NCBI GenBank assembly: GCA_015233725.1
Contig: JADFXD010000007.1
Location: 1-64,000, forward strand
DNA length: 64,000 nt
From: Nitrospirota bacterium
GTDB taxonomy: Bacteria; Nitrospirota; Thermodesulfovibrionia; Thermodesulfovibrionales; Magnetobacteriaceae
Direction: 5' to 3'
The notes beneath the pieces are model-generated. The model was not told the DNA's origin, searched no databases, and saw only the letters and a list, made by a program, of their open reading frames with translations. This document shows, one piece after another, positions 33,304 to 61,855 of this stretch (position 1 is its first letter; each line of letters begins with the position of its first letter). Made by a program: the position numbers and the translations under genes.

Positions 33304-33444
33304 GGGGTCAAGGGGACTTCTTTGTGGGGCGGCTCGCCCCTCCCCTTGTGGGTGGGTCTGAGGGAGCCAGGAGCGTCCTGGAGCGGTAAAGAGCCAGGAG
33401 CGTCCTGGCGCGCTAAGAAGACAGAGCCGCCATCTTTTTTCCCC
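33304..33444 (+). repeat. GC-rich repeat, copy 12, with extra CCAGGAGCGTCCTGG palindromes
   Basis: Within the usual frame, two tandem units of GAGCCAGGAGCGTCCTGG occupy 33364-33410. The unit is a perfect 15-bp palindrome. Of the remaining gene-free stretch, 33207-33303 carries one copy of CTCCTTACAGTCG (33272-33284) and 33445-33614 holds only the leader of motA. Confidence 0.8.
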
Positions 33445-33614
33445 ATGCTAGAATAATTTTCCTGACCTAGGCAAAAACTTCCCCCTCCTGTATACTGTCC
33501 AACCTGCCATCAACATGTCTCTACCGCACGTTGCCGTGAATCTACCCACCTGGCATGGTAACTGCAAAGTAGTAATCGGTCTAAATAATTAAACTATTTT
33601 ATGGAGGTACACAG

Positions 33615-39948: not shown

Positions 39949-40089
39949 ATGGAGAAGGTGGTAAAGGAGCTGCAAGATCGGGACAAAGGCCCTGATGATG
40001 GCTGGGATGAGCGCGAGGCGCTCAAGCACTGGTGTCAAATCTGTGGGCCAAGCGCCATTTCACCGTACATCCATAAATTCTTACTGTAA
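39949..40089 (+). pseudogene. Small gene fragment ended by a mobile element
   Basis: A frame beginning MEKVVKELQDRDKGPDDGWD, open upstream to about 39887 and rich in sensible codons, ends at TAA inside the left end of the inverted-repeat element at 40084. It may be the 5' part of a small gene cut by that element. I do not recognise the protein. The rest of 39775-39948 is the leader of the divergent TPR gene. Confidence 0.35.
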
Positions 40090-40249
40090 ATATTTCTGTG
40101 ATAAGTACCTGCCCTACCAGAAGAGAAGAAAGAAAGGGGCGGCTCCGCCCCCCTTTAGAACCCCCTGCAAGGGCACCAGTGCCCTTGACCCCATAATTCT
40201 TAATCCTGATGTCTCATTCTTAATCATATCATCACAGGATTTTTGACAG
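40084..40249 (+). mobile_element. MITE-like element, CTGTAAA family, copy 1
   Basis: A 166-bp element with imperfect inverted ends: CTGTAAATATTTCTGTGAT on the left, ATCACAGGATTTTTGACAG on the right. Its core (40120-40195) is a GC-rich double-hairpin repeat in minus orientation. Its right 60 bases are identical to those of the copy at 44098-44275. No clear target duplication. Confidence 0.75.
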
Positions 40250-40294
40250 CAAGTGACTTTTTGATGCCCCCTCCTTCTTTCCCTTTTCTTGTAG

Positions 40295-44097: not shown

Positions 44098-44275
44098 ATA
44101 AGTACCTGCCCATATACAAGTAGAGGGAAAGAAAGGGGCGGCGGAGCTTCTTTACCGCTCCAGGTCGCACCTGGCCCCCTTTAGAACCCCCTGCAAGGGG
44201 ACCAGTCCCCTTGACCCCATAATTCTTAATCCTGATGTCTCATTCTTAATCATATCATCACAGGATTTTTGACAG
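44098..44275 (+). mobile_element. MITE-like element, CTGTAAA family, copy 2 (left end eroded)
   Basis: The left side starts at ATAAGTACCTGCC, lacking the outer CTGTAAA; the right end ATCACAGGATTTTTGACAG is intact. The core is a GC-rich repeat in minus orientation that contains the accessory TTTACCGCTCCAGG segment. It begins ten bases after the gspL stop. Confidence 0.7.
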
Positions 44276-44338
44276 CAAGGCATATTTTGTATTTAATCCA
44301 ATTGAAATCTGCTATACACTATCTAATAACATTATATT

Positions 44339-49604: not shown

Positions 49605-50600
49605 TCAATCCGTGTTAAGCTCGTGGGTGTTGATGGCCTTGATGTCGGTGCTACCGACTCCTCGCCCCTGGGCGATGCTCAGAAACGGGACGTCCGCGAC
49701 GTTGAGGTCGAGGAATCTGAGGCTGTAGGTATCGATGGCCACCTCGTCAACGCCGGCGATGATGGTGTTGGCTATCTCAACGTCGGCGATACTTCCACCC
49801 GTGGGGCCGTTTCTCTTGAGGACGCGCGTGGCGTCCATGACCGTCAACGTGGGTCGGATGGCGTTTGCCAGGTCGGCTATCGAGAGGTTGATCTCCTGAT
49901 GGAGGCGGTTTCTGCTGCCACCTAAGACGCCGTACCAGTTTTTCATGGAAAGCGTACACCTGCTCAGTGAGTGGTGTTTGAGCACAGGGATGTTTATCAG
50001 CTTGTCCACCTGATGAAAGTACCTGCACACAGGCCAGCTCTTTAGTACCTCTCCCTTGAGGTCGGTCTGGAGGAAATCATCCCCCGTGGTGAACCTGACC
50101 TTCCCGCCGGCCTTCAAGACGGCTGCCTCCACGCCGGAGCGTGCAAAGCTCCTGTAGGGGTCGTTGATGGAGACGTCCGTCACCCACACCTCCGATGCCC
50201 TAGCCTGAAGGCACATCGCTACAACCGCTCCCACGACCTCGGGATTGGTGTTTGCGGCCAGCTCTGGCTGTCGGTCCCATCCCACGTTTGGCTTTATCAG
50301 CACCCTGTCACCGGGCTTGATAAATCGCGACAATCCTCCAAGTTTGTCAAAGGCTGCCTGAAGCATCTTTTTGACGTCCTTGCCGTGGGCTATCACCATC
50401 GCGGGATACAGCGTTGAGGCCTCAACCCTGTAGCGCTTAAACGTGTAGATGGTCTCCTGGCTGCGTCGCATGGGTCTGTCGGAGTAGGAGATGACGCCCA
50501 AGGCCCCCGTCACCGTGGCAATGGCCCCGGTTACACCCGCCTTGATCAGGAACTCGCGCCTGCTCAGTGTCGGCTCTGTCTTGTCGTTCTTAGATGGCAT
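49605..50600 (-). CDS. Tat-exported DUF362 protein
   Basis: A 331-aa protein with a twin-arginine signal (SRREFLIKAGVTGAIATVTG) followed by the DUF362 domain: GDRVLIKPNVGWDRQPELAANTNPEVVGAVV, DKLINIPVLKHHSLSRCTLSMKNWYGVLGG and a C-terminal DEVAIDTYSLRFL. The open frame extends to 50696, but its first 32 codons are repeat sequence, so ATG 50600 is chosen. Members often sit beside iron-sulfur proteins. The reaction is unknown; export through Tat suggests folding or cofactor loading in the cytoplasm. Confidence 0.88.
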   Translation of the reverse strand: MPSKNDKTEPTLSRREFLIKAGVTGAIATVTGALGVISYSDRPMRRSQETIYTFKRYRVEASTLYPAMVIAHGKDVKKMLQAAFDKLGGLSRFIKPGDRVLIKPNVGWDRQPELAANTNPEVVGAVVAMCLQARASEVWVTDVSINDPYRSFARSGVEAAVLKAGGKVRFTTGDDFLQTDLKGEVLKSWPVCRYFHQVDKLINIPVLKHHSLSRCTLSMKNWYGVLGGSRNRLHQEINLSIADLANAIRPTLTVMDATRVLKRNGPTGGSIADVEIANTIIAGVDEVAIDTYSLRFLDLNVADVPFLSIAQGRGVGSTDIKAINTHELNTD

Positions 50601-50686
50601 AAGATAAAAGAGTAAAAGAAAGAAGGAGGGCGGCTCCGCCCCCTCCTCAGACCTCCCCTGCAAGGGGACCAGTCCCCTTGACCCCG
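50601..50686 (-). repeat. GC-rich double-hairpin repeat, copy 17
   Basis: It is open in the DUF362 frame and its pyrimidine tail (minus strand) touches the DUF362 start codon. The remaining gene-free bases to 50910 are AT-rich and carry the leader of the next gene, with GGAGGA at 50901. Confidence 0.85.
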
Positions 50687-50910
50687 TAATGCTCAACTCT
50701 AATCATTGATATCATAGCTATATTATATCATGGCGCTCAAAAATTTTTCTGTTGGTCTTTTAAGTTGCAGTAGCTCTGTTGTCAGACATCCATCAACCCC
50801 AAATGAAATATTTATTTTAATAACACAAATTGGCTATCGTTTTTTTGTATAATTTCGAGTATGCTTTATTTTAGAGCTGACTGTATAGTTTTATAATTCA
50901 GGAGGAATGG

Positions 50911-52131
50911 ATGTATATGCGAAAGGTTAGAGTTTTATGTTTGTTGTTTAGTTTTATCTTCACGGCAGGCTTTTTGTTGGTACCAAGGGGAGTTACTGCT
51001 AACCCATTAACAGCGGCAGCTATTATCACCGCAGCTCGGAATCTCGTACAGGCACTTAACAATATAGGGCCAAGCCTGGGTACTAATGGACAGGTGGTCG
51101 TTAATGACGCAGTGCAACAACTTAACACATTAGCAAACAAGCTTGAGAAAATTGCGGGCAAAAACATCAAAGACCCATTAGAAAATCTTGGATTGGATGC
51201 TCAGAATATTGCAAATACTCTTATGGTGACAACGTCTAGTATAAATAGTATGCTTACAGTGCAGAGAAACTGCCTTGCGAAAGATTCCGGGATTTTTCTC
51301 GCAGGAGTTCAAACTACAATTGCAAATGCGAAGAAAGGGATACCGTTTGTAAAGTCCGGCACTCCGTTTGTGTCTATTTTCAGTTTTGCAGGTAACCCAC
51401 CCCATACACCTTTCATTATCCCACCTGATGGTGGCACTATGACAATATCGGGGTATGCCTTACGGGAGAAGCTCCCCACCCAAGTAAGCATTGTAGACTC
51501 TGAGTCAAAAAAGACGGTATTTACTCCAATACGTGGCAGCAGCAATGACGAGGTTTCTTTAAGTGTGTCTAAGAAATTCATCCAGGAAAACACCGGTAAA
51601 TGCCTAACATTGGGAGTAGAACCAATGGAGAAACAAGGCTTTCTATTTTCTCATGGTAAAACTACGATAACTCAGTTGAATATCCCATTTTGTGTGCCTC
51701 AGGATTTCGCTGTTCAGCTTCGACTGACCGGCACCATAGCATTTTCATGTACAAATGTAACGACATCTCCTGTGCCAGTAACTGGATATGTAACTCAAAT
51801 AAATGACGATTGTGACCACACCACCACTGTTGGTTACACGTTTGCAATGTCTGTACCACAAGGATGTAGAATAATTGAAGCAACGGCTATGAGAGGAAAC
51901 AATACCCGTAACGAAATTGGCGCAACACACGCTTCTTTTACTGATTCAAACGTTACATTAACCGGACAGATTGGCGCTGCTAATTGTGCAGGTATACCAT
52001 TCACTGGTATAAAGAAAGAAAATAATCATGCTGTTTGGCAGTATGCAGCGAGTGCAATCAAACAGTGCTCGGAGCAAATTATTCTTACTGTAAAAAATCC
52101 TGTGATGATATGCTTAAGAATAAGACATTAG
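50911..52131 (+). pseudogene. Secreted protein gene of unknown family, 5' part, interrupted by a mobile element
   Basis: Signal peptide (VRVLCLLFSFIFTAGFLLVPRGVTA) then a helical region (LVQALNNIGPSLGTNGQVVVNDAVQQL) and beta-rich sequence with several Cys. Codons up to 52083 (391) are native; the last 15 residues (from LTVKNP) are read from an inserted element. Removing 52085-52253 plus one copy of AAATTATTC joins this part in frame to 52262-52561 for a 490-codon product. The family is not recognised. It may still be secreted as a shortened protein. Confidence 0.85.
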
Positions 52132-52253
52132 GATTAAAAGTTATGGGGTCAAGGGGACTGGTCCCCTTGCAGGGGGTTCTAAAGGGGGGCGGAGCCGCCC
52201 CTTTTTTCTCTTTTGGTGTGGCAGGTACTTATCACAGAAATATTTACAGGAGG
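52085..52253 (-). mobile_element. MITE-like element, CTGTAAA family, copy 3, inserted in a gene
   Basis: About 169 bp. Ends CTGTAAAAAATCCTGTGAT (from 52088) and ATCACAGAAATATTTACAG (to 52249) are imperfect inverted repeats. AAATTATTC flanks it on both sides (52076-52084 and 52254-52262); the similarity extends to 14 bases with one mismatch (GGAGC/GGAGG). A GC-rich repeat forms the core. Orientation is opposite to the copy at 40084. Confidence 0.9.
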
Positions 52254-52261
52254 AAATTATT

Positions 52262-52561
52262 CAAAATTCTACTACTGATTCCGGATGGATGTCTATGCAA
52301 TCACCTCAGACACAGATATGCGTTAACATCCCAAAATCCTGCGAATCTAACAGTAGTGACGCATCGCTGATACTTGAACAGAAATATGGCGATGCCATCA
52401 GCAATCTTTACGAGCCTCCTCGTATAACCGCTGCAACAGCTTCCGCACCATTTGACCAAATTACCAAGGGTAAATACACTATGTCAGGCAGCCTTAATAA
52501 AGGTGTTTCGAATAAAGGACAAATCTGTGCTCAAGTCAGCTTACCAAGTTGCGGTTATTAA
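52262..52561 (+). pseudogene. 3' part of the interrupted secreted-protein gene
   Basis: Ninety-nine codons in the frame that continues the upstream part after element removal (QNSTTDSGWMSMQSPQTQIC...). It ends VCAQVSLPSCGY-like with paired Cys (KGQICAQVSLPSCGY). An ATG at 52289 could start a 90-aa product, but no ribosome-binding site precedes it and there is no signal peptide. Confidence 0.8.
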
Positions 52562-61584: not shown

Positions 61585-61652
61585 ACTGTTTTCTAATATT
61601 CTTTCTTCCGCCCTTCTATCATTAAGTATACCATTTTCCTATGTTTTTATTC

Positions 61653-61834
61653 CTGCAAATATTTCTGTGATGATAAGGTTAAGCATTATGGGGGCAAGGG
61701 GTATTGATTGGATTGCTCCTTACAGTTGCTGGTCCCCTTGTTGGGTGGTCTGAGGAGGGGCAAAGCCCCTCCTTCTTTCTCTTTGCGCTATTTATGGGCA
61801 GGTGCTTATCATATCATCACAGGATTTTTTACAG
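61653..61834 (+). mobile_element. MITE-like element, CTGTAAA family, copy 4
   Basis: A 182-bp element with ends CTGCAAATATTTCTGTGAT and ATCACAGGATTTTTTACAG. The GC-rich core lies in plus orientation (61688-61780), opposite to copies 1 and 2 relative to the ends, and carries CTCCTTACAGTTG. It sits between the Rpn gene and the convergent end of the flavoprotein gene. Confidence 0.8.
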
Positions 61835-61855
61835 CAATCAAAAATTGGCCTGCAT

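Follow-up and report, generated by a model that had tools for sequence, protein, structure and literature searches.

The locus raises the question of whether two consecutive open reading frames, separated by a block with inverted ends, are the remains of a single gene split by a mobile element, and of what kind of transposase could have placed the element there. We examined it within a window of 64,000 nucleotides, which is the whole stretch of DNA analysed; the host is by inference a magnetotactic Nitrospirota bacterium, a Candidatus Magnetobacterium species, and its genome is referred to as G000. The feature is a real and recent insertion of a short non-autonomous element, a MITE, into a gene. 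We put the probability of the whole explanation, in which a MITE mobilised in trans broke a 490-codon gene and duplicated 8 bp of its target, at about 0.93; within it, the transposase type is a proposal drawn from terminal sequences.

Table 1. Coordinates of the interrupted gene, the inserted element and their parts in the window.
Feature	Position	Strand	Remarks
Interrupted gene, 5' part, 391 codons	50911..52083	+	signal-peptide-like N terminus, no Pfam family
8-bp target duplication AAATTATT, left copy	52076..52083		
MITE, 170 bp	52084..52253	+	identical copy at G000:C82:8396-8565
Left terminal inverted repeat CTTACTGTAAAAAATCCTGTGAT, type B end	52084..52106	+	
Tail of the broken gene supplied by the element, 15 residues (LTVKNPVMICLRIRH) and TAG stop	52084..52131	+	
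Core, genus-specific hairpin repeat (GGGGTCAAGGGGACTGGTCCCCTTG hairpin and GGGGCGG-AGCC hairpin)	52145..52215	+	
Intrinsic-terminator-like hairpin with T-rich tail, in the gene's sense	52181..52215	+	fold z -2.1
Right terminal inverted repeat CCTCCTGTAAATATTTCTGTGAT, type A end	52231..52253	-	
8-bp target duplication AAATTATT, right copy	52254..52261		
Interrupted gene, 3' part, 99 codons and TAA stop (52559-52561)	52262..52561	+	

The upstream frame reads ...Q I I up to the ATT at 52081-52083, and the broken gene as it stands encodes 406 residues, the final 15 of which, together with the stop codon, are contributed by the element. Virtual excision of 178 bases, comprising the element and one copy of the duplication, repairs the frame as the sequence-only reading had predicted, giving 490 codons from 50911 to 52561. 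That reading treated the repair as strong evidence; the frame is indeed restored, but taken alone its restoration carries limited weight, because any insertion flanked by a duplication restores the frame and one frame in three matches by chance. The coding character of the 3' part adds to this: scored against the codon usage of the window, the joined frame is the best of six (-0.06 vs -0.22 to -0.73), and a fixed frame stayed open over the same length in only 14 of 5000 shuffles. By inspection the N terminus resembles a signal peptide, and the product is probably secreted, while a Pfam search with the gene returned noise only and no family. Homologues were found neither in 396 genomes of the phylum nor in the 40 nearest genomes nor in viral contigs, and the proposed comparison with relatives therefore yielded no empty site at this locus and no direct view of the intact gene. 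We infer that the gene was still whole when the element arrived; its apparent confinement to this species is in keeping with a disruption that the host can bear.

The boundaries of the element were set by comparison with 18 other complete copies, which places its terminal sequences at CTTACTG...CAGGAGG. The inverted ends, already recognised in the sequence-only reading, are 23 bp long, imperfect and asymmetric; the pattern CTGTAAAAAATCCTGTGAT occurs exactly at 52088-52106 and with three mismatches on the minus strand at 52231-52249, and the window holds six matches to the end pattern at three or fewer mismatches where 0.03 are expected, far beyond chance. The direct repeat AAATTATTC lies where it had been placed (52076-52084 and 52254-52262), but the comparison of copies shortens the duplication itself from nine bases to the 8 bp of AAATTATT, since the C on the left opens the element, and its counterpart at 52262 is a base of the gene. 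The block thus shows the features of a MITE, with terminal inverted repeats, a target duplication of fixed length, a short span, no transposase gene, dispersed near-identical copies and an empty site for a sister copy (C165:40548). An Rfam search of the window gave no family matching the element or its hairpin core.

The other copies of the family carry the case for an insertion. The sister copy at C82, identical over 170/170 positions, lies at a different site with its own perfect 8-bp duplication, AAAGTTTT. Perfect duplications of exactly 8 bp flank 9 of the 19 complete copies in the host genome, and duplications of 9 bp or more flank none; the chance expectation, obtained from mismatched left and right flanks of different copies, is 0.056. 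The duplicated target 8-mers are 91% A+T, compared with 59% in the flanks. The other complete copies are 170-277 bp long, and most copies are intergenic, the one in the window being the only one of the 19 clearly within a gene. For the copy at C165:40548-40721 an empty site could be examined: its two flanking genes, 206 bp apart in the host genome, are separated by 14 bp in the congener G001 and, where the element is likewise missing, by 103 bp in G002. The family is present in the same-genus genomes G001 and G003, G002 having only two end matches, and contigs with matching ends carry the names of Candidatus Magnetobacterium casense and related Nitrospirae; the assignment of the host to this genus rests on these two observations. 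The sister copy, the 19-copy family and the C165 empty site in a congener together bear out a MITE-like insertion that splits a gene, and its suggested fairly recent date is consistent with the perfect duplication and the identical sister copy.

Other family members also lie in the window at 40080-40253, 44257-44279 and 61649-61838 (one complete, one single-ended, one older and diverged). A congener has a 58-bp coreless element whose two inverted ends nearly abut (L081 476-533, G003:C204).

Three other accounts of the locus were weighed. The frames could be two genes, the upstream one ending naturally near codon 391-406 and 52289-52561 being independent, with the repeat as an intergenic spacer; this accords with the mostly intergenic position of the copies, with a 90-codon reading frame that has its own ATG at 52289, and with a joined length seen in no homologue. 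We nevertheless consider it improbable, given that taking out the element and one 8-bp duplication joins the frame exactly and without a stop, that the 406-residue frame owes its last 15 residues and its stop to element sequence present unchanged in the C82 copy, and that beyond the junction no other frame scores as well for coding as the joined one. A contig misjoined inside the repeat, with flanks drawn from different places, is barely credible, even though the assembly is fragmented into 168 contigs, with many of them breaking off inside such elements, and a second identical copy is available: a misjoin would mix AAATTATT and AAAGTTTT, so the presence of AAATTATT on both flanks, and of the C82 copy's own pair, speaks against it, and the reading frame is continuous across the junction. 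It is also very improbable that the element is a reversible switch whose precise excision turns the secreted protein on and off. Exact excision leaving one duplication would restore the frame, but that holds for any duplication-flanked insertion; no dedicated recombinase, second state or conserved arrangement turned up, and the gene is not common to relatives.

The trans-mobilised MITE insertion would have proceeded as follows. A transposase acting in trans would have moved the 170-bp non-autonomous element into the 490-codon gene of a probably secreted protein, and 8 bp of target would have been duplicated on insertion. This enzyme would most likely have belonged to the prokaryotic Mutator-like (IS256/ISKra4/ISLre2) kind, an ISKra4-like member being the best candidate. 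The predicted protein is truncated after residue 391 and gains 15 foreign residues and a stop, behind which a terminator-like hairpin would have been placed, so that the transcript of the broken gene would end inside the element. Given the early stop and the hairpin, expression of the last 99 codons is improbable.

The sequence-only reading had proposed a search of the genome for a transposase with matching ends, and this found none: no transposase flanked by these ends turned up in the host genome or its congeners, the ISKra4-like genes of the host genome and genus lie without such ends, and facing pairs of ends on one contig of the host genome are all less than 300 bp apart. The end pattern expected of an autonomous partner is CTTGCTGTAAAAAATCCTGTGAT...CAG[TC]AAG, and a full match to the candidate left end, GATGATATGCTATAAGAAGGAGCGATAATTTTT, was obtained solely where a contig breaks off. 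Contigs C23, C144 and C163 of the host genome end about 50 bp inside an element that has the same left end but a different interior, GATATGCTATAAGAAGGAGCGATAATTTTT, including the ribosome-binding-site-like AAGGAG; the autonomous partner possibly begins in this element, broken at the contig ends. In M. casense a solo end has ordinary genes as neighbours, and a search of viral contigs for the ends gave no match.

In other phyla, too, CTGTAAATWTTTCTGTGAT and CTTGCTGTMAAWAATCCTGTGAT form the ends of short elements, whose interiors are unrelated; these occur in Parabeggiatoa, in the cyanobacterium Iningainema tapete and in bacterium UASB270. Iningainema tapete contains two elements (C13 and C134) of about 1.6-1.7 kb, with the ends CCACCTGTAAATTTTTCTGTGRT in near-perfect inverted form, perfect 8-bp duplications (AAAATTTT and AAAAAATT) and a transposase inside. 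This transposase matches the NCBIfam model NF033572 (ISKra4) with an E-value of 2.7e-30, its ISLre2 match being weaker; because its score of 105.8 bits falls below the curated cut-off of 205, we call it only ISKra4-like. A further point against the assignment is that the Iningainema elements carry a type A end on both sides, the MITE one end of each type, A and B. By inspection, coding sequence upstream of the transposase lies in another frame beside a run of A, and degenerate end-like sequences adjoin diverged relatives of the transposase in UASB270, Gloeocapsopsis and Acaryochloris. A survey of prokaryotic Mutator-like transposases describes inverted repeats that measure 18-39 bp and carry a terminal C, together with duplications of 8 or 9 bp; it includes Nitrospirae in the host range of the relevant group and ties asymmetry of the ends to insertion orientation (PMC3942029). 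The features of the MITE fit this description and that of the survey's p-MULT 4 group: its inverted repeats have a terminal C (CTTACTG..., CCTCCTG...) and its duplication is 8 bp, while such ends bound a transposase of the family in Iningainema and not in the host genome. The ends of the Iningainema insertion sequence thus suggest that the mobilising family may be ISKra4-like.

An unrelated family that makes 8-bp duplications could mobilise the element instead, the match to the Iningainema ends being coincidental; IS1595, ISL3, IS66 and IS4 types, for example, also produce duplications of that length. The partner not found in the host genome and the sub-threshold NCBIfam match of the Iningainema transposase leave room for this account, which we rate as somewhat unlikely because the Iningainema element has the inner end sequence CTGTAAATWTTTCTGTGAT in common with the MITE, because the duplication length is equal and the target A+T-rich in both, and because degenerate end-like sequences lie beside diverged relatives of the transposase in UASB270, Gloeocapsopsis and Acaryochloris.

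The interior of the element has a history of its own. The core repeat has 486 matches in the host genome and 108, 416 (G002) and 193 in congeners, compared with 22 in one other genus, at most four elsewhere and none in the reversed control, and it is found without MITE ends at hundreds of sites across the genus. In the window, the hairpin repeat (GGGGTCAAGGGGACTGGTCCCCTTGCAGGGG...GGGGCGGAGCCGCCCC, followed by a T-rich stretch) occurs, often between genes, at 1376, 6858, 8286, 10546, 17995, 25184, 27159, 29625, 31304, 31934, 33305, 35563, 37741, 40179, 41919, 44205, 47332, 50672 and 52146. Its stem shows paired two-sided changes (GGGGAC/GTCCCC, GGGCAC/GTGCCC, GGGGGC/GCCCCC, GGGGTC/GACCCC). The MITE core is a captured copy of this independent, genus-specific hairpin repeat. 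That the hundreds of core repeats are instead decayed MITEs was considered and ruled out, because G002 has 416 cores and only two end matches.

Copies whose arms are identical (no differences over 121 arm bases) nevertheless have cores of 53, 80, 105 and 156 bp; the core measures 156 bp in C29:14417 and 105 bp in C30:5960, against 53 bp in the commonest copy, and the C116 and C2 copies depart from the commonest copy solely in the hairpin stem, where the two sides have changed as a pair. Change in the core is modular and far quicker than in the arms. Tentatively, and as a possible rather than a probable reading, the MITE would be a two-tier unit in which a Mutator-like frame holds a core that is repeatedly replaced or extended by modules from the roughly 490 genomic repeats, through gene conversion or through insertion of palindromic modules. 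If this is true, such a unit would spread ready-made stop-plus-terminator cassettes and serve as a vehicle for the hairpin repeat.

Elsewhere, modules (GGCCAGGAGCGTCCTGGAGCG..AAAGAAG and GACTTCTTCGTGGCCGGGG..CACCCCTCCCC) are nested in the loops of core repeats, sometimes several times, as at 33305-33480 in the window, L045 1501-1777 and L048 1501-1726. A core repeat with a terminator-like hairpin also lies at 50620-50690 in the window, behind a promoter-like stretch and immediately before the probable start codon of the gene at 49605-50600 on the minus strand, an arrangement that resembles an attenuator.

The element shares with bacterial MITEs such as Nezha of cyanobacteria and MITEAba12 of Acinetobacter (PMC10969869) its short length, lack of a transposase gene, inverted ends, target duplication and many near-identical, mostly intergenic copies. 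It departs from them, Nezha being compared by description and not by sequence, in that its interior is an independent genus-specific hairpin repeat and in that module content differs between copies with identical arms. Its 23-bp asymmetric ends starting with C and its 8-bp duplications are like those of p-MULT 4 (the ISAzba1, ISMich2 and ISKra4 groups; PMC3942029), and the Iningainema transposase with ends like those of the MITE seems to be divided between two frames in the manner of the ISMich2 group; unlike p-MULT 4, the MITE contains no transposase, and none with matching ends was found in the host genome. The core alone resembles REP-like and terminator-like repeats such as the pneumococcal BOX, RUP and SPRITE (PMC3049150, PMC10969869) in being short, multi-copy, hairpin-forming and intergenic, but here the repeat is cargo inside a MITE with ends of its own, and it had no Rfam match in the window. 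As far as the open-access literature searched shows, the element is of an ordinary kind, a gene-breaking MITE, and belongs to a new family; no earlier miniature elements in Candidatus Magnetobacterium, an uncultured group, were found in the searchable literature. The modular core is unusual cargo and the part worth following.

These observations describe a MITE family recently active in Candidatus Magnetobacterium, with ends that may be linked to a Mutator-like transposase type across phyla. Its identical arms and modular cores form a natural record of the growth and exchange of small palindromic repeats, processes that are otherwise hard to date.
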